Below, piece by piece: positions 1 through 64,000 of a stretch of 64,000 nucleotides of DNA. This DNA comes from Branchiostoma lanceolatum (Eukaryota; Chordata; Leptocardii; Amphioxiformes; Branchiostomatidae), in NCBI RefSeq assembly GCF_035083965.1, contig NC_089726.1:13397501-13461500 (forward strand). Direction: 5' to 3'. Position 1 is the stretch's first letter. Each line of letters begins with the position of its first letter. The notes under the pieces were generated by a model. That model was not told the DNA's origin. It was given only the letters and a program-made list of their open reading frames with translations, and did not search any database. The position numbers and the translations under genes are program-made.

Positions 1-2487
1 TAGGGGGCGCTTCTAGAGTCCCGCAAGCTTTGGGAGAGCTGGAGATTACAAAAGCATTCTGCCTGAAGGCTGCTGCTGAGATGTAGACGAATCAAGTGTA
101 CAGGATCATTTATTTTGTCACGAATTGCAAAAGAAATAGGAGTCAAATTGATCCATCATTTACCAAAATGGATCTCCTTCAAATTTTTGTAACAAGAGCT
201 CATTAAAAATGAATTAATTAACAATGTTACAATGACAGCCTTTGACATAATAAAGTTGACCCTAAGGAAAGGGAGGAAATGTCGAAGTCTGCTGCTGGTT
301 AACTTTGAGGTAGAATCTTGTGGAAATAAACCCCTGATGTTCCTCCCATGTACATGTACATGATTTGTGGCTCTACCAGTGACCCTTAACCATGTGGTTA
401 ATGCTGTGCATGACCCAGTGCTGTGTGTACAGTGGAGGAGTGTTATGTTTTCTGGCAAGTAGACATTTTCTGGGTCAGGAGATGACAAAGTGGGTCTGAT
501 TTGTTCAACAGCTCTAATCAGGCAGGGCCTATTATAACTGTACCAATCAAATGGTTTTATGCAACTAAGGGTTGAATACTTTGCAGCAATTATCTTTGAT
601 GAAGCCTGCCTATTTGTAATAGGCATCTGAGTATCAAATCTGGCGTCAGACTAGAAAACATTGTGAACTGTAACATGGAAGACAAGCAATTGAAGCATAC
701 GATTTTTATGAGAAATGTTTCTTCCTAATACATATATGGGAAGACAATTAAAGGATCTGTTTTTAAAAGCAGTTAGCTTTGTATAGGCTGCCACGGGAAA
801 GCTCTATGTAGAATAATGTAATAGCTAAAAAAATGCAATGCCCCTTTGAAAATAAGTAACACTACAGGTATTAATCAATAAGAGAGGGGTGATGCAACTA
901 GAAGTGTGCGGGTCAACTGTTAAGGCTCTCCTTGCTCTACTTCAAGTCAGCAGCCTACTTCTCTCTGGTTAACACACAGTTTTCTCATAAACATTTCGAC
1001 CATGTATTCATAGATTTCATGGCAGTCCCAGTGAAAAACCTTACCATTTTTTCTGGCTTCTTATACCTACTGCTTTTCAAAAGGGTGCCACCTGAACAGT
1101 GATGATCACAATGATTTTAGCTTTGGTGGTCATTGATTAAAGGATTTATACTTAATAATTATGCCCCAAAATTTTATTTGTGCTTCCTGTTTCCAATAAC
1201 TTTTTTTTCAAATGAAAGTTGTTAAGGTACCCACAAACATATGGTACAAATAACATTTAATTATGGTGGTAATACCAAGGACATTATTCAGAGATAATGT
1301 CCTCTGTTATCCCAAGAATGGCCTCCATATTTTTAAGGATGTTGATATTCGATTCTGTTCTTGTTAGTCCACAAATAAGACCAGGTAGCCAGGGACGTAT
1401 TAGAGACGAGTCTTTCTCCTCCAGACAAATTTGGGAGGGAATGTTGTAGTGCTCAGCTGGGACCTGACCTAATCAGCTCAGCCCCAGGAATTGCTCATCC
1501 AGGCCCATTGTGTGTAATAGACAGATTGATGCTATGCTGGCCTATATAGCCACACAAAATGACCACCACAGGCTTTAATAAAGCTTTAAACCTTCCAGTT
1601 TCAAGACTGATTAATTATGGGTCCTTGGGGATCTGTAGTTTCATTAGTTTTTATGATGGGTCATTCCTAAATTTTTTCAATAAACTTACAGTGTAAAGTG
1701 TGGCAGAATTTCATATTCAAGATAGAGAAGGAGGTGCAAATGCAAGAAAATATAACAACATGATGTTGTGCCTAAATTTGAATACAGAACAATCAGGTAG
1801 GTAAACATTTCCAATTACATTTCTGCATGCTGGCTTTATGAATAAAAGGTCACTACTGCATTAAATATACAACAGATTTTGCCTGGACCCAGTCCAGGAG
1901 ATTGCTGGAAGGATGGATCATGGCATTCTTTCCACCCGTTACCATTTCATATTCCTTGTCTATTTAGTACTCCTCTTTCCTAATTGATGTTTTTTTGTAC
2001 TTTTAATTATGTGCATTTGTCATATATGTATGATTTAACCTCCATTTGTGCTCATTGCCTCTGCTGGACAAGATTTTGCAGTAGAATTGTTGATTAAAGG
2101 GAACCATTCAACCAATCAGTTGAATTGTTCAGGCCAAAGGACAGAAGGGATAAAATTTGCCCCGCTGGATGTGTCTCTCTTGATTACTAATTACAAGAGG
2201 AAATCCGTGGAACGAGCCGTCAGGCTCCCATCTTAATGAAATCAACACAGAATTTCCCAATGTTTGCCCCCCCAGTTTTGCCTAATTTGCCATAATGGAA
2301 TTCTGCAACCTGCCGGGTTTCCAGCTGAAAATAGATTTAGCTGCTCAATGAGAGGAAAGGTCCAGGTGAAATTGCCCTGGTCCAGGTAAAATGGCATGTG
2401 CCTGTTGTGATTTGCCGTAATGTGTATGATTTTTGTCCCATCTGTGTAAGTCCTTCTTGTCAGTAAATCCTCAACATACATGTATTG

Positions 2488-2624
2488 TAATCTCCAAGCA
2501 GATCTATAGGTTGCTAAGACCGTATCAAACTGGCAGAGGAGGTACGTTTTGCAACCGATTGCTATACAAGCTCCTTCTTCCAGTTGGATAGTCTTTGCAA
2601 TCCATTGGACCTGCTTGGAGACTA
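2488..2624. mobile_element. Palindromic MITE with 9-bp target duplication
   Basis: The ends are inverted copies starting TAATCTCCAAGCAGATC, and much of the 137-bp body is also palindromic. Perfect 9-bp direct repeats CATGTATTG flank it at 2479-2487 and 2625-2633. A 9-bp duplication is typical of Mutator-like transposons; the superfamily call is inference. The same terminal sequence recurs at 57070 and, altered, near 27368 and 34545. Confidence 0.8.
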
Positions 2625-5600
2625 CATGTATTGTACTATTTTTTTGACGGGGTCAACTATTTGTGCATATGTATTTGCCATATTTTTCCCCTTAAATTCA
2701 GTGAAATTAATTCTAATCATGATCCGTTCAGAAAGTTGACATTCAAGCAATATTCTGGTGATGACAGCCTATCAAACATGACAATTCCAAGCTGGCAGAT
2801 GTAGATGCAGTCAACCATCTTCAGAACATGATGTTTAACTGTGAAGCATTCAATGTTGTTAACAAGCAGGGTCACTCTCTGGATATTGATCTCGGCCAAA
2901 CTGGTACCTTTATTTTTAGACCTGAAAGGATTCTCAATATATACTGTCTAGCTTTTCATGATAATTTAATGTGTCAATCAGATGTACTACACTTTGTACT
3001 TGAGACAGGAATGAGGAGCATTTATCAAGTTTGGTAAGATGACTTCACAACTCTGGTAACAAAGAAATGTTACTTCACAATACTTCGTGTTGTGACTATG
3101 AGACATTGTTGCACCTTAGGAAGCCAAGAATAGAGTTACCAGATATAACATTTCAATGCTGATAAGTAACTCTTTATAGGAGACTAAAAAAATAAGAGAA
3201 AAATACCGCTCTCTCCAGTAACATTTTCCCATATTTCTCCCACTCCACAGCTTCATCAAATATTTCTTTTAATGTAACATCCGACAAACAGGATCTTTGA
3301 TTTTTCATCCCTTTACTAGTTTGTACCAGACTCCACGGGTAGATGGGATAGTGGGAATTGGCTACATACTAGACTGAATAATTTGCCAGAGTTGGTTTCT
3401 AATTGGTAACTTTCTGGCCATGCAGCTAACTCCTCTAGCAAATCATTCAGTCTATTTGGCCAATTTTGCCTCTATTCCAGGCAGCTACCAAGGAGTTAAG
3501 CCTTTACAACCATTTCTGTTCACTCCACTATCTTCTTGAATAAAAACAACTCTTCTGAAAAGAGGGACACTGTGCCTACTGTATAGAATATTCACACATC
3601 AAGGACTGGAGAAATACATGACTCACTAACATAATTAATGTTTGTGGGGATAACTAGGCACATCACTGGACTACAGTGTACTTTCAATTCCATTAACTTA
3701 ATGGATCTTAACTTTTCTAGACACAGTGAAATAATGCCAGGACACGTAGGTGTATTACAATCAGAATTTGTATCAAGAGGGTGACACAAGAGGCAACTGC
3801 ACACTTCCTACTATCATCTCTGTAATTGCTGACTCAGACTCTCCACAATGAAATGCAGGAAATCTCAAGTCACTTCTGATCAATTTACCACCATAACACA
3901 TCAATCAAGGAACAAAGATCATGTCTCAAGATGTCTGGTTTGATGAAAAGCTTAGTATATATGTCATTTTTGTAACTGGGTTGATGGAAGAAGTGATGTC
4001 ATTTTTAACAATGTGACTCTCAACTCGGTTGTTTGTTTATAACTTGTTCCAGTCATTGCCTGTATGTTATGCAGGAAGTGGGCTTAAAAAAGAAAGTTGT
4101 TTTTAAAAAAACAAAAACAAATTTGCAATGGGAAACAGCAAGCCTGTTTGGTAATCAAGAAAGTTGTTTGAGTCATAGAATGGTAAAGAGCTTCAGTAAA
4201 TAGATATCTCCTCACCAGTCACCAGTGGAGAGTTGTGTTATTCATAAGTGACTTCCATCATGTAGTCTGGGAAAGGCTGTGGCCATGAAGGGCAAAACAC
4301 ATGCCCATTATATAAGGTAATATAAATCAGGAATTCCTCTTCCATGAAATCCTTTTGCAGAACACTTAACATTCCTCTTTGCTGGCTGATTGGCTTTTTA
4401 CATTCCTCCAAATCATACTTCCTGCTTTGGTGCAACATAGAAAGGTTGGGAGTCTCACACATAAGCTTAGTGTCACTTATATCTACTGTTGTTTTCCTAA
4501 GATAACACCTGTTGTTCAACATCATATTCAGATACTGGAAATATCAGCTCTGTTGACGTCTTCTGCACAGCATGCACAGTTTCACAATCAATGGCACCAC
4601 AATTAGTTATAATCCTCAACCTGTAATGTACCTGCATGTCAATCTACTTGACTATGACTTTCTCCCCATGAAGGCATTCTGATAAGATTTACAATTATCT
4701 ATGACTGCCAAAGTGTAGGGCAAATTAACTGTATGTATGTAAAATTAACATGTATGTTTTCAAAGCACTTGTACCTGTCGTAGTGATGGTTGTGATGATG
4801 AATGACTAAAGCACCTTGTAGTAAGGGAGCTGAGTAACACTGCATTGAGCATCTTACAACAGGCTGCCCTATAGAAATGGTCTGGAATTTGGCAACAATG
4901 CAGCAAATCACTTTGAAATTGCAAGGCAGTTCATGCCATGCTATCTTTTTTAAGTACAATCGTCTGCACTTCTGGTCACAGATAAGACTTTCAAGTATTG
5001 AGTTTTCATGAGGCAGATTTCTCCGCAAACCATCATCCTGTCAAAAACTTCTCCTGTGCAAACACCACAAGTCTAAATGTTTTTTGCAGTATGTAAGTCA
5101 GTGCTTTAAGTCTCTTAAACTTTGAGCAAAAAATACAATTTAACCTGGGCAATGAAGAACTATAAAAGACAAGGTATAAACAACTTTATTGTAATTTGTA
5201 GAAAGTACATAGATGAACAATTAAAACATTCAAAACCAGTCTCTTGTCATCAAAATTGAATATCATCATAACTATCCACAGTACTAGATTTTTCTTTCCT
5301 TCTTTGACGTTAATACAGATCCATAATCAAACCAGTCATATCCATAGTTAGAGATTGATGAGCACTTAAATCCATGTGACAGGATATTTGAAAAATGCAC
5401 CACCTCTTTTACTGTCCAATCTTCTAGTTTTGGGGGAAACAGACTAAAATAAAGATGCATTCATATCTCCATAAAATCAATTTAATGTATATTTAGGAAT
5501 TTGAAAGGCAAAAACTATGAGCTCATGTTTGAATGGAAACAATAGGGCTGTCATGATAAAGGCTGTGGAACTCTGATACTGGTTCCTGCCTCATTCCTCC

Positions 5601-12400: not shown

Positions 12401-15400
12401 AGAAGGCTTTTTTTCAGTTTTGAGGGTACCGGTCATATTTATGATAATCGTGGCAGTCAATCAACTTCTCCACATGACCTTGACATACAATATTTCTAGT
12501 GAAAGACAACTTGAAACTCAGAAACAACAATATCAATAGTTTATTTAGCTACTCAACAATATCAATAGTCGATACCAGTTTTCCTTTTTTGGGCTGTGTC
12601 TGGCTGTCCTAAGTCGAAGCGCAACAATCGTCGCTGTCAGAAGTTCTCTTCGGTGCGAAATAGGAAACGATATTCCTGGTATACTACGCTTCAACGCAGG
12701 CATGTTTCCAGAAAAATCGCCGCCGAGGGAAGTCGGCGGCGAAAGTCCTAATACGAAAGTCCCTTGCCGCGGCATTTAAAGAACATTGGCCCGTCTAAGA
12801 AATCGCGTCACCCCCCTCCCCCAAATATATACGCCGCCAGCCCGTTCCAGGAAGCCAAACCGCTGTTCTGCGTCTTACAGATAACGTGGAACTTCCGTCT
12901 AATAAAAACTTTGTACAAGCATCGCTGTGGGAAAGTTCAGGGAACGTAACATCGCCATAGATCCAACTCGCGCGTTTTCCCACAAAGTTGCCGCTGATTT
13001 GACAGTCGGCAGCCTTTGATGACAGTCGCGACCATGGCGACGTCGGCGGCAGAAAGTCTACTAAAAGAAAAGCCGGCGGTTTGTGGGCGGTGCCACAAAT
13101 TTGCAGTATCCGAATAGACCCCTTTCCAAATACCGCGGCCATTTTGAATCCAGGGCGAGCGCACGTGGTTCGAGCGCGGGAAAAGTAAACACACGGTAAG
13201 ACCAAGCCAGCGGTAAGGCGTCCCCAATAGAAACCAGCGTTGAGTCATCTTCGGCGGCGAGATGTTCTCCTCCTCGGTGAAATCCATCGATACATTTGCA
13301 TGGCACAAGTAGATGATATTGTTGTGGACACTTGGACTCGATATCGGCCAGTAAAATTGTGAATTTCTGCTACTTTTCCACAGTTCCTGCCGGGATGTTG
13401 AACGCGCGCTACAGTGATAGAATGCTAAATATGTTTACAACGCGTGCTTGTAGTTTCCCTAATATTAATAGTAATAATGTTAGCTTAAGTCGAGAAAAAT
13501 CCCACAAAACATACACTTTTCGGGCTGGGATCCTTGTAGCTACTTATATAGAAATATACATAATTCTACCGGTTGTCACCGTAATTTTGGTCGATGCCAA
13601 CTTCGCCTGGGATAACGCGCGTTGAGAGAGGGTCGTGTGTTCTGTCTAGCCTTTCTTTCTTTTCTGTCTAACTTTTCTTTTCTTTCTTGTTACATCGCCC
13701 CGCATGGCGATATTTCCACTGAATGCAATGCCACAAAAAAAAGACGTGTAGGCTTGAGCTTAAGGTCATTTTTGTTTAGTCTCTACCAGACTAACCGCGC
13801 CGGCTACGGAGAGAACATTTGTCGGGGGACTTTGGCAATGGAGGGTTGCAATATTGGACCCCATCTCCATAGCCGACCCCCCTAATACATTTGACTCTAT
13901 TTGGCCAATTGCTACTATTTTCCCAGCAACCCGTGGAGACTGGTAGAGTCTAATTCTTGTTAGGAATTTAGCAGAATTATGCGGCTTCTTTTGACGAGTT
14001 TTCTGAAATATCAAAACCTAAAGAACGTGAGTGAAGATGGAGTTTTCACTTTGCGCCGTAATATCTTAATTTCCGTCGGATGATATTACAGAAACATGAA
14101 AATATAGGCTTGAGGGCTTTGCGAGTATAGAACTTTGACGGAACTTCGGTGGCTCCTTTGACTTTGACGATATTTTAGTGCCAAGATTAGTTTGATGAAG
14201 TTCGTGAGTGAAGCAGGGGGCGTGTTTTCTTTGTAGCGTTTCATTACATCACTTTTCGCGGAAATATTTTAGATTTCCACAGGATGAAACCCCACAAAAA
14301 AAGGAAAAATATCGGCCTGAGGTCCTTCAGTCCTCAAGTTAATATTATTCAACCTTTTTTGGGTTCCATCCGGTCAACAGATATCTGAAATATTGCCGCG
14401 CAAAATGATTTAAAGAAACGTCAGATACAGTGGAAAACACACCTTCACTCACGTACTTGTAGTCCTCAAGACTAAATTCTTGGAATCCAAAAAGATCGTC
14501 TAAAAGCCGCCGGAATGTTGCCAAATTTGTACCCAAAAGGACATTGAACTCAAGCCAATTTTTTTTTTGTGGGATTGCATTCAGCGGAAATGTCAGATAT
14601 TGCTGAGCGAAGTCGATGTAACGCTGCACAGAAAACACGACCCTCCCTCAAACTAACGTAATTTCAAGATGATGTTGGCATTGTCACGAGAACCAAAAGG
14701 CTCAAGAGTCATACCTAAACGTAGCTACAAGGATCCCAGCCCGAAAAGTGTATGTTTTGTGGGATTTTTCTCGACTTAAGCTAACATTATTAGGGAAACT
14801 ACAAGCACGCGGTGTAAACATATTTAGCATTCTATCACTGTAGCGCGCGTTCAACATCCCGGCAGGAACTGTGGAAAAGTAGCAGAAATTCACAATTTTA
14901 TTGGCCGATATCGAGTCCAAGTGTCCACAACAATATCATCTACTTGTGCCATGCAAATGTATCGATGGATTTCACCGAGGAGGAGAACATCTCGCCGCCG
15001 AAGATGACTCAACGCTGGTTTCTATTGGGGACGCCTTACCGCTGGCTTGGTCTTACCGTGTGTTTACTTTTCCCGCGCTCGAACCACGTGCGCTCGCCCT
15101 GGATTCAAAATGGCCGCGGTATTTGGAAAGGGGTCTATTGTCCAATCATGGCGAAGCTTATAAATAAGTTGAAACTTTATCTTCCTCTCTTTGTAAAAAT
15201 GAATTTTCTGTGCATTAATTCGCTGTTATGGGTGGGAAAATGACGTCACCTTGCTCTAGAAATTTGTCAGAAATACAGTTAAGAATTAATTCTATTCCCG
15301 CGCTGACAGAGAAAGGAATCTTTTACAAAGAACAGCTTCTGAGTTGGTCAACTGCACTGAACTGCGGACTGTTAACTTCCGAATAAGGAGATTCCCCGGG

Positions 15401-49400: not shown

Positions 49401-49776
49401 GGACAGGTAACTAGCAAATTACGGTACAACTTCATACATGGTACATGGACCTGGATCTCCTAAGTAATATAATTTGATAGTGGCTAGCACAACAGAACAA
49501 CAGCACAACAGCTTCATCTCTCCAATAACCTTCTATACATCATTTGCGAAAGCTGCAAAACCTTGTTACTGTCACTTTGACCCACCACTTGGAATATGTT
49601 TTAAGGTGTACAAATTAACATTGTACAATAACATGATCATTGTGCGCATGTTAAGAGTATCTATTGTTTTACCAATTTTTTCTCTAATCCTATGGATGAT
49701 TAAATTAATTTGTGTTTTTACTTCAGCTCCACATCCTCTACTTGAACTTGAAGATGAGGATACAGCCTATGTTGCC

Positions 49777-50019
49777 ATGGCAGCAAGAAGAAGCCAACTA
49801 CAGAAGCAAGTTCTAAATCTTTACAAGCAGTTCCTCCTTCTCTCTAAGGACAAGCCTGGTCTAGCCAATCACGTCAGAGCCGAATTCAAGAAGAATGCTC
49901 AGCTTCCGAAGAGCGACGTTTTGCGTATTGAATTCCTGATCCGCAGAGGCTCACGACAACTGCAAACGTTAAGGACAACGAGCGTACAACAGGTTGGATC
50001 TTTTGAGAAAGGCACCTGA
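49777..50019 (+). CDS. SDHAF1: Succinate dehydrogenase assembly factor 1 (80 aa)
   Basis: Mitochondrial LYR-family chaperone that helps deliver iron-sulfur clusters to SDHB during complex II assembly. The protein begins MAARRSQLQKQVLNLYKQFL, so the LYR motif is LYK here. It continues with KPGLANHVRAEFKKNAQLPK and SDVLRIEFLIRRGSRQLQ, the signature of SDHAF1, and a GSF near the end. The coding part is one exon after an acceptor TTACTTCAG at 49726, so a 5' untranslated exon is likely upstream. The ATG has a strong context (GCCATGG). An earlier ATG at 49754 is in another frame and opens a 20-codon overlapping frame that could lower translation. It is shorter than human SDHAF1 (115 aa), mainly at the C-terminus. 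Confidence 0.92.
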   Translation: MAARRSQLQKQVLNLYKQFLLLSKDKPGLANHVRAEFKKNAQLPKSDVLRIEFLIRRGSRQLQTLRTTSVQQVGSFEKGT

Positions 50020-50081
50020 ACACTTGGGACAAACAAAACTAATGCTGTAATTCTGTGGTTTCGTTACAAAGTTACCAAACC

Positions 50082-53000
50082 ATGAGGCATCTCTTGCAGA
50101 GAGCTCTGCAGAGTAGAACATTCTACTGGAATGGACTTTCAAACCTCAGGACTTGTACACAAGGATTCAGACTATATAGCAAATTGGACCAGTTTTGCTA
50201 CCCTGTAAGTCTAAAGGGGCAGTATTGTCTGAACAAAAGAGATTTTCGTAGTGGATATTTTCAGTCAGCAAATTGTTCTCTATCAAGATCATGCTACAGA
50301 AAGGTAACCACAAGTCAGGATTTAAAGAGTGAGAATGAAGAGGTGTTGAAGGATGCTCCTGAAGACTGTCCTGTCTTGGAGGCAGTTTCCTACTGGACCA
50401 GGGAGTTTGAAAGAGCAGGGGTACCTGAACCTGATGCATCAGCGGAGTACATAGCAGCACATGTACTGGGGTATAAATCAGTAAGTTGGTACTTTTTGTT
50501 TTAAATTATACTGGTTTAATTACACTACATTAAATTTTAAAGATCATTGAGTTGCAATATGCCACTATAATGACTATAAACGATATGCCCATCTTCATAC
50601 AAAGGAGTCCAAATCATTCTAAGACACAGTAACTGTAGTTGTAGAAGAATGCACTGACACCCTGTATGTATGAATACTGTTACATGTTAGTAAAAGAAAT
50701 GCATAACTTCTTTGTCCATGTCAAAGACCCATACCCATGTTTTAATTCCTCACGCTCCTGTCCAGTTCAGCCTCATCAGTCCACTTGTACGGAACCTGAC
50801 AGCAGAGGAAAAGACCAAAGTGTGGAAGCTTTGTGAGAAAAGAATGAATCGGTAAACATGCCTGTTTTTGGCTCGACCATTCAAAGCCTGTCATCAGCAA
50901 TATATATTTAACACAGGGCTGTCTCCAGGACTCATCCCTCCGTCCCAGGATGGAAATTCGCTTGTCTGGACGGAAAAAAATGTCACCCTGTCCGTCCCAA
51001 AAGTTGGAACTTTTTGACATAAGATTGATGAAAATGCATTTTTGTAGGCTTAAAATTACAGATTCTACAATGAAAATTAAAACATTGGATCTCAAACAAT
51101 GGGTGGGACGGAAAAAAATTTAAAACTGGGGACAGCTCTGATTTAATATTAAAAATGCTGCTGTTTTTTCTTTTGATAGACATTAGCAATTTAGTGTAAA
51201 TCTGACATTACATATTGGCTATTTTATCATATACACATGTATACAAGACTGTGAGACTATTTGTATTATTTTAGCTGCATTTATCATAAACACAAGATGA
51301 AAGTGCTACATGACGATAGTTCCCTCCGTTCCTTACAGTATGCCCATACAGTACATACTTGGTGAGTGGGACTTCAGGGACCTCAACCTTGTCATGAGAC
51401 CTCCAGTCTTTATTCCCAGGCCTGAGACAGAGGTAGATGTTAACCCCACAGTAATTGTGTTGTTGACACCACATTTTCACACTCTGTTGCTTCCAAGTGG
51501 CAATAAATCTGTATTTGTTCCATGTGGAGGTACATGTAACACTGTGCAAAATGTAACGGTTGCAGATGATTCTTGTCTCCTGCAGAATCTTAATTGCGAT
51601 ACAATGTACAGTTGATGATCAAACTCTTCCTGTTTCCCCATCTGTGCCAGGAGCTTGTAGAACACCTGTGGTTGTACCTGCAGGAGGACCTGACCAGGGA
51701 GGAGGAGGACCTGGATGTCCTGGAGGTGGGCTGTGGGAGTGGAGCCATCTCCCTGTCTCTACTGCAGGAGTTCCCACAGGTACAGGGCTTACTGGAATTT
51801 GTGGCAGTTATCTTTATCTTAGCAAGCCACACTGTCCTTACCTCAGGATTTACATTCCAGTTAATAGCAATATTATTAGGGATGTAACTAAGGCTCAACT
51901 GGTAGCAACCTCACAGTTGACCTCCTGGTTCCAATGAATTGCTAACTGTGAGACCCCGCTTCAATCCTGGGTCAGGACATCTCTGCTGGAGCAGCAAACG
52001 TCTTTCAGAAGTGATGTAAAATGGGGGTCCTGTTTTCAAGAAGGACTCAGTGCTAGCAACACCTCCCTGTAAAGATACCCTGCTACTGAAACAGCAAGGA
52101 AACTTGCTGCCCTCTGTGCCACTAGGTACTAAAACGGTCTGATCTAACCAACAAACAAATAACTATCTGGTTGTGTCTGCAATACTTTTATCAACTATAA
52201 ATTATCTTGTTTCAGGCATGTTGTACTGCTGTTGATGTGACAAAAGAAGCTGTGGAACTCACTCAGCACAATGCTGAAAGGTAAAATTGCAACATTTTTT
52301 TGGTCAATAACGAAAGCTGTATTGACATCAATTTTGGGCAAAAGTGCTTTGAAGCTGATTGTATTTTTTCTACAATGTACAGGTTGGGACTTGGTGACAG
52401 GCTTGATGTAAAACAAATGCAGTTCAACACTTCAGGTAAATGTTTCACAAATTCTCTTAAATAGTTGTTGATATTGTTAGAAATAACATTTTGGAGGCTA
52501 TTTTTGTTCTCTTTTAGGCCACATTATTGTCTTAAGTCCTAACAGTTTATCTTGTCATCTTTTTCTAGCTGATTTGGGGACTAAATTTGATGTGATAGTC
52601 AGCAACCCTCCCTACATCTGGACACAGGATATGGAAACCTTGGAACAGGAAATAGTGGGGTAAGATGTTAAAATGCTGTTGTTAGGCTACACCTTTTCCT
52701 ATGACATTTCTTCTAATGCTAATTGTATATAATAAACTGAAGCATCGGCCAACTAGCCTGGGTGGAATCCAATTTACCCTCGGGGGAGCAAGTACAGGAG
52801 CCCCAGTAGTAAATTGGATGGCAGTCAGGCTATGGGCCAAGTTTTATCATTGATAATTTGTACTTATGTCTTCCCAAGGTATGAGAATCACTGTGCACTC
52901 CATGGTGGAACAGATGGAATGGGGCTGATAAGGGACATCATACATATAGGACACAGGCTACTCAAACCTGGGGGGTGAGTTGAGATGTTCTGTCTAACAT

Positions 53001-54357: not shown

Positions 54358-56470
54358 TTATAAAAGAAACTTGTACACATCTTCACCTATGCTAACTTCA
54401 TGCATACTGTGAATCAGGTTTCCTACTGTGGCCTTTCTTCCCTGTTTTTCTTTCCATTTACACAGCATGTCAAATATCTGTGCATGTACATTGTTCTTAT
54501 TGTCCTCTTTGAATTTGTAGAGTTCGGACTTTTTGAAGTCCAGTTCTATGGCCAGTTTTTCCCACTCAGCACCAAGTTTGTCGGCTAACTTGTTCAGTTC
54601 CTTCTCTGTCAGGATCTCCTTCACCCTTGGGGAGTCCTGTAGGTTCATCCTCGCCATTTTGTCCTCTAGCACATCCTCTGTGGGGAACAGGAGACAGCAA
54701 CAGTTTACACATTGTTAGATGGAAAATGTGAGCAATGGATTTGTTTTTGTAAGGGGGATGCTACATCGTCATGGTTACCAGTGGTTCCAGAAATTTTGTC
54801 TGATTTCAGCCACATACATGCAGCTATACACACATCATCAGCAACACCATCTGCTGGTGATACCAGTAGTGCTTTTTTTTTTTCAAAAGGTTTTTGGGAC
54901 CTACACTAAAATACCATTCATGTTTCTACACATTTCTATCAACCCTCTGAAAGGACATTGTACTCGATATATTTCAAAAATTTCAATTATAGTTATGCTT
55001 TTTCTTTTTCAATAGGTGGTACTGTACATCCGTGTGACTGTGTACATAGGGATCCATTTGTCATCAAGAGCATTACCAAGCCACAAATCATGTCTCTGTG
55101 GATCAGTATGATTTAGAAGTGAAGTCTAGAAATACTTGTCACACCTTGACACTGTACAGCTGTAGTTGTTCCCCCTCTCCTCTGGTCTTGCTCCAGTAGA
55201 TCTTTACTCAGCCAGTCATAGAGTTCCTCCAAGGACTTACAGAACATCTACATGTACATAGAACCAACATCACTGCCAAGTTTACAACGCCCTAGTACAC
55301 TTTAGGAAACAAGCATTTTCAATTAGTGTTTCAAAAACTGAAGACATTTCACATCAAAATATCACATACTCCTTGCTTCCATACATTGTATGTAAGACTG
55401 TGCCATAAGACCTGTAATTGAACAGTTTCTGCCTCTCCTCATCCCTTCCATTTTGAAGCATAGTTCAGTCTGCCTCCTCCTGAACTTTCAAATGGAACAG
55501 CTAGCCCATTTCATCCAAGAAAGAGTAATGGGATTGAGCTGTAATTTTCTTAAGTAACCTCATTACATAGCATAAGTTTTGATTTCTTTCTTTGCTTCTG
55601 TATAACCCAGACAATACATCCAAAAAAAGATACATTTTGTACATACCATCCCTTAGGTGGCCAGTTTAATTCAAACACTATAATTACCAGACATATCATC
55701 ATTTAAGTTTTCGTATGTCAGAAAAGCCAAATCTACTCAAACAAAAGTTAAAGATGACCATGAAGTTGATCCGTACCATGAACGCCTTAGGTCCCCTGGT
55801 CACCAGTGTGTCCAGCAGCTGCTCTACCCGGCCATGACTGGTTTTCTCTGCCATGATTTCCTCCACCATGGTGTCGGTCAGAACGTCCTCCTGAAAGATA
55901 GAATGTAACAATAGTTAAATAATGGCAACTTCAAGGATTTGGCAGGTTTTGTATCATAATAATACAATGGTTACTCATGTATGTAAAAGCATACATACTT
56001 ATAAAGGAAAGGCATAATAGCAACCATAACAACTCTGTTTATATTTTAAATGTCTTTTGGGCTAAATAGACGAGATATACAAAGTTGGAAATGCCCATAT
56101 GTTCAGAATAAGTCGACCAGACAATTAAGTGTATTCACAGAATTGTAAGCTTGTGAATTGTAAAATGAAAAGTAATATTAATAGCTTTAAAAGGTGTTGA
56201 GAAAAAATGATATCAACATGCAGAATATCCAATCTTACTATGTGTGCAGCTACTATTGATATCACACTGCTATGATACTTTCTGCGTGCCCTGTCACCAG
56301 TCCCGGATCCCTTCAGTAAGAAATGGCAGATTGGATTAATTGATTAAGGACCATGTGCCTCCTGACCAATGGCTGACCTGTATGAGAAAGTTGGTGATGT
56401 GCTGCACTTTGACGTTCTTCACCAGCTTCACCCGGTTCCTCCTCAGGATGTCCCGATGTCTCTGCTCCAT
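54358..56470 (-). CDS. CRADD-like: CARD + death-domain adaptor, CRADD/RAIDD type (4 exons, 209 aa)
   Basis: Adaptor that in vertebrates links a death-domain partner (PIDD) to a CARD caspase (caspase-2). Exons on the minus strand are 56470-56378, 55890-55777, 55247-55145 and 54677-54358, with closing phases. Residues 1-90 form the CARD: MEQRHRDILRRN, then LIQEDVLTDTMVEEI, LLDTLVTRGPKAF and the tryptophan-containing LEELYDWLSKDL. A linker of about 35 residues follows. The death domain (about 124-209) reads LTEKELNKLADKLGAEWEKL, SELYKFKEDN and MLCKWKEKQGRKATVGNLI. Domain order and length match human CRADD (199 aa), including RGPKAF. Orthology rather than a lineage-specific paralogue is not proven, since a similar CARD+DD gene lies at 62.8-64.0 kb. 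Confidence 0.88.
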
Positions 56471-57069: not shown

Positions 57070-57207
57070 TAATCTCCAAGCAGATCTAAACGGTTGCAAA
57101 TACCGTATCCAACTGGCAAAATGGGTTTTTGTTGCTTGGGTTGCAATAAAAACTCATTTTGCCAGTTGGATATGGTCTTTACAACCGTTAGATCTGCTTG
57201 GAGATTA
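57070..57207. mobile_element. Near-perfect palindromic MITE with 9-bp target duplication
   Basis: 138 bp, almost fully palindromic, with ends TAATCTCCAAGCAGATCTAA and its complement. Perfect 9-bp flanks GGGCAAGCG lie at 57061-57069 and 57208-57216. The arms are closely matched and the flanks intact, which suggests a recent insertion. Confidence 0.85.
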
Positions 57208-58979: not shown

Positions 58980-61664
58980 TCAACTTCCGAATATCTCACT
59001 GAATACGTCGACGTCACTGGAAAGTTTTAGTCTAGCATTCTGTTTGACACTGGACAGTAGAACCCCCATTTCCACAATGCTTAGCTGGTTGCTATAGGGA
59101 CGGAACCCACAAGTGTGCAAGAGGACAGCATTACCATGTTTGGAAAAGGCTGGAGAGCCAGAGGAGCCCTCAAACATGACGGAGGTCTGGTAGCTCTCCA
59201 TGTTAGGGCGCTCCGTGGGCCATTTCTGTGGTTTATCTGGAGGCCCTAGCAGTGTAAGAGCCTTGCTTGTAACATCATCAACACCTACCACTGCACAGAA
59301 GTCCACTCTTTTCCTACCTCCATCTGGATGTCCAACAATCACTACGATATCTTCGTTACCAACACCTGCAGCTATCTTGGTACCCAGGGGACGTACGCTT
59401 TCTGTTTGCATAGTTTGAGAAACTGCTCTGTCATCAGTGTGGCATATTTCAACAATAGCATAGTCTAATGTATCATCGCAGACGACAGAGATATCAGGTT
59501 TGAATGTGAAGGTCAGCCTCTTTGCACCTGTAATGTTGAAATGGACAAGGAACCTTTGTGGGTCAGTAACCTGGCCGCAGCTTTTATTTGCCTCTGCCCA
59601 AACATGATTAGCGGTTATCACATGTCTGGGACCAATCAAGAACCCAGAACCACAACCGTTAGGATGTTCTATCAAACAGACTGATTTCATGCTGTCATTG
59701 ATTGCAGAAAAACCTTCATAATCAATACTGTAGTTAATGGAACTAGAAAAGTTCTCCACACGCTTCTTCAGCGGCGCCTCCCACTCCTTGAGCTTCAGTA
59801 CCCGGTCCTCTTCTTTCCTGCCACCGCTTGGGTCAGGGGTGAAGTCGACACCAGGATGCGTCTTCTGCACGATGACTGATGCTTCCTTCAACAGCAGAGT
59901 CAGCCTGGAAGGGCGCATAAGGACACTGTTGGTGTTTAAAAAAGTCAGAGCTACTATGTTTAAATTGCATTAACAACTAACAACAAGTAGTGGAAAATAA
60001 CAAGTAGTAGAAAATTCTTCATGAAAAGTTAGCGCCTCAGCAGACTATCGAAGGTACAACCTAGTGACATCCAAGGTTAACTGTGGGTTGCACAGTGTTG
60101 CTGTGTTGTCACACTTACTTAGGTACTGTTTAAAAACATAATGGGCAACTGTCCTACCTTGGATCAAGTGATGTTCGTGCCGTCGATTCAGGTTCGACAG
60201 CCGGCACCAATCCAGTTTCTAGTGAAATAGGAAATAGACTGATGTTGGACATTTTCAACCTCTACCTTGATTACTTGCTTCTCGAATAGTTTTCGTGTTT
60301 TATGTTTCTCTCTCTATTTGTCTCTATATTTTGAACGTCGTCGTCGTCCAAAGAAACTTAACCCACATTGTGATGCATTCATTTCTTGCCAGAACATCGC
60401 TTGTAATGAGAGCTTTGAAAATAGTTTTGGATAGTTGGATTTGAGCTAAACTAAGTTATTTCTTAAGTTTCTTACCTGACTGCTTTGGGGGCAGTAAAAT
60501 TTTGGATGTGTCCTCGTCAATCCCAAATTCACGGAGCTTCTTAACAAGGTTCGTAACGGTGGCGCCTGTTCCAGCCTTCGCTTTCCACATCACCAGCATG
60601 GCGAAGATTTGGGACCACACGCTGTGGGTGTGTTGTGCCTTGCACCTGAACACCTCCGCTTTCGTCAATCCCAGAAATATGGCTAGGTTTTCCCAGTCCG
60701 CACCTACAGTTGAAATACAATCGTATGTTGTTTCATACGACACTATCACAGTATCACTAAAGTTAGAGAATCAGTTGTGACTAAAGATAATTTTTTGTAT
60801 TATGATTTAACAACATTCCGTGCTAATCGTTCATCTCTTTACTACCGACAATTTTGCCCAACCGTTAAAACTAATCCCCCCACTTCTACTTTTTAGGCAA
60901 TATTATCAATACCAACCTAACTTAGCAGCCAGGTTGTTGAGTTGCTTCTCTGTCACACGATCTGAGAGAGTCATCTTTGCGACATCTTGAGATAGTTGAT
61001 GTGCCACTGTTTGTCATAAAAACAAACAAATGAAACGATGATCATGAATGCGTGGCACTGGATACAGACCCTTTGTAAACTATTGGTGTAACTTCTGCAC
61101 ATTAAATTCTGAGGGGAAACGACTTTTACATAAACGAAAAACAATACTAGTCCTGAGAAGAAATAGCAGGGACAACCTCTAAGGGACCAGAGGCCAGGGG
61201 GAGCATAAACAGCCAGCTGAAAGACATAACTCTGTAAATATAAAATCTGGATGACATGAACGAAAGAGCAGTCGAAGTCCCACCTGTTATCAATTGGGTG
61301 TGTTATGGTTAAGATCAAAGTCAAACTCTTTGCCTGATACTAATGTAGCGTAACCTCCCAGCCCCAATGGGGCCCCAGAGAAATAGACTTAGATAACCTT
61401 GTCATATGTAAATAAATATGTATATATATATATATCATGTGTCGGAAAACGTTTGGAAGACGTATCAAAGATGTTTTGTTTCGAAACAATTTGCGTAATT
61501 TTACTATGTTTTGCACCAGACATTTTACTTTGTCTGCAGGTGCCAGCCCACACACTGTTTACCTAAGCTTATTAGGCACACGGGCCAAGCTTCGCGGCAA
61601 CAAAAGTGAAACCAAATTCTAACGCCTAATTGTTACATTATTCAACATTCAGCAGTTACTTACT
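58980..61664 (-). CDS. Death domain fused to a chymotrypsin-fold serine protease (434 aa)
   Basis: Minus-strand exons are 61664 and upstream (untranslated except the final A of the start codon), 61006-60917, 60703-60476, 60218-60158 and 59904-58980; all phases close. The start ATG is split: A from exon 1, TG from exon 2, giving MAHQLSQDVAKMTLSD. A death domain spans about 18-100 (VTEKQLNNLAAKLGADWENL, MLVMWKAKAGTGATVTNLV). After a linker, the protease (about 195-425) has His227 in HVITANHVW, Asp274 in DDTLDYAIVEI and Ser375 in FEGSSGSPAF, preceded by CGSGFLIGP. The layout resembles trypsin-like proteases of the HtrA/Trypsin_2 group. There is no signal peptide or membrane segment, so it should act in the cytosol. 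I know no vertebrate gene with this fusion. Substrate unknown; recruitment by the neighbouring CARD-DD adaptors is inference. Confidence 0.87.
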
Positions 61665-62776
61665 TTTGCTTCTCAATGTTTCCTAGCTCTTCGTTGGACT
61701 TCCTTCGGAAATGTTTTGCTATAGTGGCTATAGCGTGACTTTCTATACTGAAGGGGACAGGACTGTAAGATGAATAATGTCCCGCCCAACAAGGAAGTTG
61801 TTGATGTGTACACCTGGTTTACCCCCAAAAAATGTAAGCAGCTTTTCCGGTTCCTCCTTCATCAAAATCTAGTAATCCTAGCACGGCTGCTGGTGATTTC
61901 TCCTAACGTTAAACGTTGGATAACAGCGGTTCAAGCAGGTAGATTCTTCTCGAATACTCTCCAGAAGAAAGTCTGCACGGCTTTCAATGGGGCAACTGTC
62001 TGAGACACCTGCCTAGCCGAGCCTATTCTAACAATAAGCAAGCCTACCATTGGTCGACAGTTTAGAGTAAATAGCTACGCTAGCCAATCATGGAGCCGAT
62101 TACATTGAGTTGTGCAACAGGTGGAGTTGACCTCTGAGGTCAAGGTACCTTTTTGTACTGGGGAGTCAAATGGAATTAGATAGCGTCACTCCGTGTAACT
62201 ACATGTATGCACGCAACCAAAGTGTTGCGGGGTTTGAAATAACTGCACAGTCAATACCATGGGGACTATGGGGTAAAATGCATGCAAAACTTCTTTCAGC
62301 TCCTGTGTTTTATGACTAACACAGTGGAAACTTCACGATCTTATAATGTACTGAGCAGAATCGAAAACAACTTCTATTGTTTAAGTTCCGTTTATTGATA
62401 TATCATTCAACTACACAAATCATTTTGCCTCATTTTGAGAAAGACAGCATTCCCAATCTGGCTGGAAATGTATCATCTACAGATATATCAAGACATATCC
62501 GGTAGTGTAAATATCACAAAGGGTTACGTGGAAAGGTGCTTGTACATTTAGTTTTACTTTGCTTTGTTTTTGTTTTGCTTTATGTTCTATCAATATGAAA
62601 TTAAATTGCATAGGGCACCAGGCTACTGACTATTAGTTGAAAAAAATGTATATGAAAAACCACCACCATCAGAATATATGACTGTGTACAAGATCATAAT
62701 TGGACTTCAGGCACTTATCCACCCGATACTATGCCCTGATCGCAACTTTGACTCCTCTTAACAATATTTGTTTATT
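61665..62776. other. Intergenic region upstream of the DD-protease
   Basis: Should hold the rest of the DD-protease 5' untranslated exon (61664 upward to an unknown point), its promoter, and the 3' untranslated region of the second CARD-DD gene (an AATAAA lies directly after that stop on the minus strand). No gene is seen otherwise. Confidence 0.6.
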
Positions 62777-64000
62777 TCACAATAGATCTAATTTTTCTTG
62801 TTCGATGCCGTAGTCTTCAAGCTTGTCCACTAGCTCCCTCACAGTTGCGTTCGTCCCTGTATCTGTATCTGTATCTATATAGCCGGTATAACCGCCATCA
62901 GGCGTAACACACCAGCTTCGCAGGCACGCGGCGCGCAGCAGCTGGTCATATTACACCAAACGGTCTGTTACACCTAGTCTTGTCCCTTGTCTGGCTTTCC
63001 AAGAGATTAACATGGAGAAGGCCCGAGACCTCATACTGAAGGGGTTTTCTGCCTTGAACCTGTCCACTTCAGCCATCTTCATGTCCAGGTGTATGGCCAG
63101 ATCTTCCCACTCTAAACCTGGACATAGATGAGAAAGTCTATTGTAAATGTGCAGACGTCATTCACAAATGTTATTTGTCCATCAGATTAACCGCTGCCGT
63201 CCCTTCTACCGAGACTTGAAATCTAACTAGCATTTGGTACACCAACGAGTAGGAATCATGATTTGCTGAGATCAAGGACATATATAATGTCCTTGCTGAG
63301 ATATGGTAACAAAGCGAATAAACATTCTCCTGCAATATTTAGGATATAGTCAAGCGGATCCAAAGCATGAAGGAAACTGAGCAGAAAGGTTTTGGTAGCA
63401 TTCTCAGTAAAAGTTACTAAAGCAGAGCAACTTTCACTTGTATCTAGTTTACCATAAGTATACACTCAGGTCATGTAGTTTCTACTGACCCAACTTTCCA
63501 GCCAAGACGTTCAGCTGTTTCTCAGTGACCCGCTTGTTGGCGACTTCAGGAGGGACGAACATGTGCTCAGTACACCGGGTAAGGTGCATGGTCTGCACGG
63601 TACGTGTATCATCTTCTTCAGGGTCGCTTGTTTGTTGCAAGGACGACCTTGTTTCTTGTAGGGGATACCGTGCATCATTTGGAGTGATGTATACGTCATT
63701 CCCTGGGCTTCTTTGTTTCCGAAAGCACTCTTCTTCCTTTTTCAGATCGTCATACAGCCATGGATACGGGTCTTCCAGCGACTCCAAAAACACACGGAAG
63801 GCACTGGAGCCCCGGGAAACAAGGATGCTCAACAGTTTTTCCACTTGCATCTTGGTCCCTGGTTGTGCTCTTACCAGCTCCAGGTCGTTAAAGTCTAGGA
63901 TATCCTCCTGTATCAAGTGATCCATGACATCGTCCGGCCTAAGGTCCCTGGTGAGCTCTTTGTACTTCCTTTTCAGGATTTTCCTATGCCTCTCCTCCAT
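62777..64000 (-). CDS. Second CARD + death-domain adaptor (3 exons if repeat is spliced, 244 aa)
   Basis: Minus-strand exons are 64000-63490, 63117-62974 and 62856-62777. The ATG is the last codon of the window and matches the CRADD-like gene (MEERHRKILKRK against MEQRHRDILRRN). The CARD covers about 1-88 (LIQEDILDFNDLELV, LLSILVSRGSSAF, YPWLYDDLKKE). The linker (about 90-150) is Ser/Asp/Thr-rich. The death domain starts VTEKQLNVLAGKLG and continues LEWEDLAIHLDMKMAEVD and SWKARQGT. There the genomic frame meets a TAA, but the rest (NATVRELVDKLEDYGIEQEK, then LDLL and stop) resumes after a 117-bp repeat. Removing that repeat with its own GT and AG ends restores the frame and adds RLGT. If it is not spliced, the protein loses the last helices of the death domain. 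Confidence 0.8.
62857..62973 (-). repeat. 117-bp repeat insertion that can act as an intron
   Basis: Lies inside the death-domain coding sequence. On the minus strand it starts GTGTAACAG and ends with ATACAGATACAG, so it has GT and AG ends. GGGAC occurs at both junctions (GGGACAAGA before, GGGACGAAC after), a possible imperfect target duplication. A related sequence lies at 58012-58075. It contains a GATACA microsatellite and in-frame stops. Confidence 0.65.

Follow-up and report, generated by a model that had tools for sequence, protein, structure and literature searches.

Does the amphioxus genome encode a serine protease governed by a Death domain and, if so, which known proteins do its two halves resemble? 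The question is raised by a gene on the minus strand of a 64-kb stretch of Branchiostoma lanceolatum DNA (contig NC_089726.1, positions 13,397,501 to 13,461,500), hereafter the window, in which all coordinates are counted. First-pass annotation had assigned to this gene a 434-residue protein with an N-terminal Death domain and a chymotrypsin-fold protease domain, and had described it as having no familiar vertebrate counterpart. The architecture is borne out below; however, the protease half resembles FAM111A and the Death-domain half resembles CRADD, and a lack of vertebrate counterparts is not supported. The favoured explanation, which has about an even chance of being right, is an intracellular FAM111-like protease with a CRADD-like Death domain that was born in a cluster of CARD–Death-domain genes and is activated by Death-domain-driven dimerisation.

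Domains and exons of the gene

Both domains are recognised by Pfam profiles. The Death profile matches residues 20–93 (9.7e-13; 48.5 bits, cut-off 22.6) and Trypsin_2 matches residues 212–387 (2.6e-12; 48.1 bits, cut-off 27.6), whereas the general Trypsin model stays under its cut-off (17.8 vs 20.6 bits). The catalytic residues His227, Asp274 and Ser375 had been placed correctly, and none of the three varies across an alignment that includes 80 prokaryotic relatives. In an alignment-based AlphaFold2 (AF2) model of the exon 5 protease the chymotrypsin fold is assembled with fair confidence (predicted local distance difference test, pLDDT, 75.8). A single-sequence AF2 model of the same exon (pLDDT 36.1) was set aside. 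The secretion signal reported as absent is indeed missing: the protein contains no hydrophobic N-terminal or membrane-like stretch, its best 19-residue Kyte–Doolittle mean being 1.22.

The minus-strand rebuild joins four exons in one open frame over a coding region of 61006–58980, and the 434-residue product is reproduced when a split ATG (61664 + 61006–61005) is used; initiation at Met12 (60974) gives 423 residues. All four introns, including the candidate first intron, have GT–AG ends. Splice sites were scored with a splice matrix and ranked against the GTs or AGs of the strand, and by this measure donors 1, 3 and 4 and acceptors 2–4 score well. Donor 1 (AAA/GTAAGT) is good, the fraction of GTs as good as the exon 3 donor (CAG/GTAAGA) is printed as 0.000, the acceptor and donor of exon 4 are equalled by 2.5% of AGs and 0.8% of GTs, and the exon 5 acceptor is equalled by 4.1% of AGs. 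Donor 2 (TAG/GTTGGT) is weak, with 8.5% of GTs equal or better, and is backed by homology because a neighbouring gene (gene B, see below) has a Death-domain intron (G/GT, after KLG) that matches the exon 2/exon 3 intron in position and phase. Acceptor 1 is poor, being equalled by 29% of AGs, and is without homology support; the split start codon is therefore doubtful, and Met12 is the alternative start. The splice phases described earlier are supported, though weakly at the first junction.

Exons 2–5 likely form a single transcript, as judged from splice-site strength and frame. Direct splicing of exon 3 to the exon 5 acceptor breaks the frame, and in-frame acceptors deeper in exon 5 reach at most 0.1 bits. 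Among 29 frame-keeping GT–AG linker candidates of 20–250 nt, exon 4 ranks first with 7.8 bits, compared with 0.7 for the next. The strongest rival explanation, itself unlikely, is that two genes are present: a short gene encoding a Death domain only, in which exon 3 is read through to a stop after GKKLKK, and an essentially intronless FAM111-like protease gene. Two features of the locus speak for this and against a fused protein, namely the weak first junction and an in-frame ATG at 59918, just 5′ of exon 5, which is followed by an open frame and could begin a stand-alone protease. In addition, a review of FAM111 proteins names no domain but Trypsin_2 for the lancelet protein (PMC9798293; the papers given here by PMC number were available as passages, and statements drawn from them are bounded by those passages). 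The exon 3 donor, which almost no GT on the strand equals, the outstanding score of the linker exon and the exon 5 acceptor, within the best 4.1% of AGs, argue for the fusion. No AATAAA or ATTAAA occurs between exons 3 and 5, which is a weak point because none occurs within about 1.2 kb past exon 5 either.

Family placement of the protease

Among PDB sequences, FAM111A is the sole protease match for exon 5 (2e-8), and it is also the top fold match of the exon 5 model; by these measures FAM111A is the nearest of the solved proteases. A search with just the N-terminal half does not find FAM111A in the PDB, which places the sequence signal in the C-terminal half. A simple pairwise alignment gives 55 identities in 180 positions and a common GHPxGxxKx[VI]DxCAV stretch; in its N-terminal part this alignment is wrong, setting the FAM111A catalytic His opposite His220, whereas a joint 82-row alignment sets it on His227. 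In the reciprocal comparison, the best match of FAM111A is the amphioxus domain (score 136), ahead of every prokaryotic row (highest 122, median 81). An unrooted tree of 51 rows (amphioxus, FAM111A and 49 prokaryotic rows, the other 31 of the 80 being left out) pairs amphioxus with FAM111A with a Shimodaira–Hasegawa-like approximate likelihood-ratio (SH-aLRT) value of 96, both on very long branches.

FAM111A has chymotrypsin-like specificity, and the residues of its S1 pocket include Phe538, His556 and Glu573 (PMC10920703). The amphioxus counterparts of His556 and Glu573 are His390 and Glu405 in both the pairwise and the joint alignment, and nine bacterial rows of another alignment have Asn at the Glu405 position. 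The lancelet protease may share FAM111A-type specificity. Vertebrate FAM111A and FAM111B carry two ubiquitin-like domains (UBLs), and Pfam finds no UBL in the amphioxus protein. This bars membership of the vertebrate-type FAM111 group, not of the wider family, because two invertebrate members listed in the review also lack UBLs.

Several comparisons pull away from a FAM111 assignment. In the joint alignment the identity to FAM111A is 46/186, no better than to the prokaryotic rows. When the amphioxus domain is compared with the 80 prokaryotic rows (median score 118), FAM111A (136) ranks fifth, behind four rows with 153, 145, 142 and 141. The target-normalised template modelling score (TM-score) from Foldseek is 0.62–0.72 for FAM111A and up to 0.75 for DegS, and FAM111A Phe538 falls opposite Phe371 in the pairwise and Glu372 in the joint alignment. 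In a second rival explanation, a Death domain was fused with a separately acquired bacterial defence-type trypsin, linked to nucleases or EADs, that is not a FAM111 orthologue and is activated by assembly in the same way. The four higher-scoring rows, the nuclease–trypsin and EAD1–trypsin proteins among the plasmid matches described below, and a PADLOC match to LmuA (1e-6) are in its favour. However, the prokaryotic rows were picked by a profile built partly on the amphioxus sequence, which favours them, and the reciprocal and fold matches, the common Glu405 and GHPxGxxKx[VI]DxCAV stretch, and the tree all point to FAM111A. Separate bacterial acquisition is considered quite improbable, and ‘FAM111-like’ the best reading for the protease, which may or may not share with FAM111 a descent apart from the bacterial defence trypsins. 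A profile built from bacterial sequences alone does not score FAM111A (2.1e-13) above the secreted Spl proteases, which speaks against a special link between FAM111A and the defence trypsins and blurs the limits of the group.

The prokaryotic relatives share about 22–30% identity with the lancelet protease. Besides LmuA, its PADLOC matches are RT-Protease_XI (1.8e-5) and Avs1b (9.6e-4), and PHROGs and NCBIfam yield only weak rows. Plasmid records give 37 matches, none covering more than 80% of the query. Among the 20 listed, ten are annotated as DNA/RNA non-specific endonuclease, one as EAD1-containing, two as trypsin-like or serine protease and one as hypothetical protein, and six carry no feature or annotation. 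One Nostoc match is an EAD1–trypsin gene adjoining MoxR, VWA and further EAD1 genes, a layout that resembles that of Kaur et al. (PMC7159879, PMC8195603). A single motif served to select the 80 prokaryotic loci (395 stretches, 184 confirmed, 80 kept), and their counts are biased and valid for that set. In 74 of the 80 open reading frames (ORFs), a domain scan identifies Trypsin_2 (74), Endonuclease_NS (28), Endonuclease_1 (14) and EAD8 (4), with overlaps unchecked; all 74 match RT-Protease_XI in PADLOC and 22 of 74 match LmuA. No relative turned up in viral or prokaryotic contigs when this one protein was the query, nor in phages, and fold matches in BFVD are to trypsin-like and polyprotein proteases from many viruses.

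Some of these loci have layouts of their own. In a Pseudorhodobacter turbinis plasmid (L007), a defence-type trypsin lies inside one long ORF (1385–4162) and is flanked by SGNH-hydrolase-like and endonuclease/exonuclease/phosphatase-like regions, named by reading the translation. Five short cyanobacterial or Chloroflexi proteins (L002, L025, L069, L079, L084) consist of an N-terminal region followed by a C-terminal trypsin, and are likely adaptor–protease pairs, with the layout nearest to that of the amphioxus protein. L002 is annotated as EAD1, and both L002 and L084 are outside the 74-ORF domain scan.

The Death domain and its CARD–Death-domain neighbours

Among PDB sequences CRADD/RAIDD ranks first, both for the whole protein (5.8e-15) and for exon 3 by itself (1e-10, compared with 0.024 for the next molecule); the Death domains of THOC1 and ankyrins are also among the rows, far below CRADD. 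The gene is flanked by two CRADD-like CARD–Death-domain genes, A and B, all three on the same strand (Table 1). The best PDB matches are the CRADD Death domain (3.6e-11) and the RAIDD CARD (8e-11) for gene A, and the RAIDD CARD (3.1e-9) and the CRADD Death domain (4.2e-8) for gene B. The Death domain of the protease gene has 42/84 identities with gene A, 35/60 with the compared part of gene B, and 28/75 with human CRADD. Pfam finds no CARD in the protease gene, and tblastn with both neighbouring CARDs over 61.0–62.8 kb, upstream of it, gives nothing at E up to 5. In a comparison with bacterial bDLD3, no relation was seen for the query Death domain, and weak rows (0.022 and 0.11) appeared only for the two neighbouring Death-domain exons. 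The simplest history would be that a CRADD-like gene was duplicated in tandem and that one copy then captured a protease exon.

The Death domain might instead serve as a docking module in a protease that, as FAM111A does, acts in the nucleus during stress or replication and takes no part in death or immunity. PIDD, the partner of CRADD, responds to DNA damage, and Death domains are found in THOC1 and ankyrins too, which would fit such a role. FAM111A itself acts at replication forks (PMC9798293). Against this, the Death domain matches CRADD far above THOC1 and ankyrins, its neighbours are CARD–Death-domain genes, and the PIP box that targets replication is, according to the review, confined to mammals (PMC9798293); the nuclear role is therefore regarded as rather remote. 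Gene B may be broken, as its last Death-domain exon holds an in-frame stop, which tells against the favoured explanation. Within that exon (62840–62990) two similar GGGAC sequences bound the stop-containing stretch; either an unusual intron or a small insertion may account for the interruption. Together with the finding that Death is the most over-represented domain in the dispensable genes of two lancelet species (PMC12373286), this could suggest a decaying or chance fusion without function among many shuffled lancelet Death-domain genes, which is very improbable given 423–434 open codons, an intact triad and good splice sites at the fusion.

Table 1. Positions of the protease gene and its flanking genes in the window
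Feature	Positions	Strand	Remarks
Gene B, CRADD-like CARD–Death-domain	62780–64000	−	runs to window edge
Candidate 5′ exon	61664–61741	−	last base 61664 gives A of split ATG (A/TG); upstream limit arbitrary
Exon 2	60917–61006	−	coding start (split ATG or Met12) and first helix of Death domain
Exon 3	60476–60703	−	bulk of Death domain (residues 20–93)
Exon 4	60158–60218	−	61-nt linker exon (ETGLVPAVEPESTARTSLDPR); phase 1 in, phase 2 out
Exon 5	58980–59904	−	linker and FAM111-like serine protease domain; stop 58982–58980
Catalytic His227 codon (TANHVW)	59604–59606	−	pairs with FAM111A His385
Catalytic Asp274 codon (D of LDYAI)	59463–59465	−	pairs with FAM111A Asp439
Catalytic Ser375 codon (GSSGSP)	59160–59162	−	pairs with FAM111A Ser541
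Gene A, CRADD-like CARD–Death-domain	54358–56470	−	exons ~56470–56378, 55890–55777, 55247–55145, 54677–54358; joined by eye

Other features of the window lie apart from the three genes. An inverted repeat at 13113–13471 and 14781–15139 has 359-nt arms that are 99% complementary and 1309 nt apart; the ORFs in both arms are largely the same sequence, and the repeat is perhaps a mobile element or a recent inverted duplication. The interval from gene A to the protease gene contains, at 57089–57189, a 47-nt inverted repeat (7-nt loop, 89% complementary), perhaps a small hairpin element. On the plus strand, two adjoining ORFs at 49468–50504 match Complex1_LYR (LYR family, 1.1e-7) and the N-terminal domain of PrmC (3.1e-5), and are probable genes for a mitochondrial assembly factor and a HemK/PrmC-like methyltransferase.

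Proposed activation and relation to known systems

Death domains assemble into helical rings and filaments. In the favoured explanation, a Death-domain unit was joined to a FAM111-like protease exon inside the tandem cluster of CARD–Death-domain adaptor genes, and would serve as the N-terminal targeting part in the place of the two UBLs of vertebrate FAM111A/B. A Death-domain platform (a PIDD-like ring or a CRADD-like adaptor, perhaps the gene A product) would gather several copies; the recruitment by adaptors that had been proposed earlier may thus take concrete form in the two flanking genes. The tethered protease domains would then dimerise and order the oxyanion hole, as reported for FAM111A, and the activated enzyme would act as an initiator protease in cell death or immunity, cleaving its own chain or substrates and perhaps favouring sites that follow bulky hydrophobic residues. 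Such activation is expected because Death domains assemble, FAM111A needs dimerisation and bacterial proteases behave similarly: FAM111A protease activity requires dimerisation through helix α1 (Val347, Val351, Lys348) (PMC10920703), a bacterial defence protease turned toxic once its partner domain was swapped for a dimerising zipper (PMC12799240), and LypA, which combines a trypsin-like protease and a CARD-like domain, acts with an NLR-like partner (PMC13236601).

Two considerations weaken the dimerisation step. FAM111A autocleavage is independent of dimerisation (PMC10920703), and the dimer contacts do not appear plainly conserved: a helix is modelled at residues 189–199 and the fold alignment with FAM111A begins at its residue 342, and, by counting from Val202/Val357, FAM111A Val347, Lys348 and Val351 correspond to Phe192, Ser193 and Asn196.

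If the proposal is correct, a relative of FAM111A that carries a CRADD-type Death domain leads to the direct prediction that its protease is switched on once the N-terminal module assembles, and the enzyme group of FAM111A and bacterial antiviral proteases would be linked to animal Death-domain signalling. The protein would be a non-caspase protease joined to an animal Death domain, matching bacterial systems that combine a trypsin with a death-fold or adaptor domain. A bolder view, possible yet doubtful, is that it is a serine-protease counterpart of the initiator caspases on CRADD/PIDD-type platforms, that the layout of bacterial CARD– and EAD–trypsins was kept or remade in it, and that FAM111A descends from an immune effector that was activated by assembly and in which death fold and UBL were exchanged as the recruiting module. 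FAM111A is a disease gene (Kenny-Caffey syndrome) and also acts as a restriction factor against viruses, and its original role is unsettled. Restriction has been proposed in a review as its possible first main function (PMC9798293).

The separate effector type suggested at first pass has bacterial precedents, as a death-fold or effector-associated domain fused to a trypsin-like protease has already been described (PMC8195603, PMC7159879, PMC13236601); for animals, no other non-caspase protease joined to a Death domain appears in the titles, abstract beginnings and passages of the literature searched. A lancelet FAM111 in itself is not new, because a Branchiostoma belcheri FAM111A-like protein without UBLs is listed in a 2022 review (PMC9798293). 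No account of a Death-domain FAM111 protein was found in the available parts of the literature on FAM111, death domains and amphioxus, a search that did not extend to subscription papers and protein databases, and automatic annotation of the architecture may well exist in the latter. In the texts available, FAM111 is unmentioned in PMC8195603, PMC7159879, PMC12799240 and PMC13236601, and trypsin in the lancelet papers PMC2575513, PMC6526094 and PMC12373286.

Compared with known systems, the protein shares with FAM111A and FAM111B the triad, the equivalents of His556 and Glu573 and the GHPxGxxKx[VI]DxCAV stretch, with a match to FAM111A in both sequence and fold, and differs in having a Death domain instead of UBLs and dimer-helix residues that are only partly alike. 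Two FAM111A-like proteins listed in the 2022 review, from a lancelet and a coral (A0A6P4ZC58, A0A7D9LSX1), likewise have a FAM111-type protease without UBLs, whereas no Death domain is mentioned for them in its available passages (PMC9798293). With CRADD/RAIDD it shares the Death domain, by a wide margin the best match, in a cluster with two CARD–Death-domain genes, and it has a protease in place of the CARD. Secreted S1A trypsins differ from it in that it has no hydrophobic N-terminus and scores below the Pfam Trypsin cut-off. The bacterial immune trypsins (NucA–trypsin, LypA of the CARD–NLR type, LmuA, Avs1 and the Hachiman proteases) belong to the same broad protease group and share the layout of an assembly domain followed by a trypsin; identity is low, as given above, and the Death domain is likened to bacterial adaptor domains in layout. 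Caspases are activated by death-fold assembly followed by proximity-induced dimerisation. The initiator caspases would thus resemble the amphioxus protein in its proposed activation, by analogy only, being cysteine proteases, whereas the lancelet enzyme is a chymotrypsin-fold serine protease.
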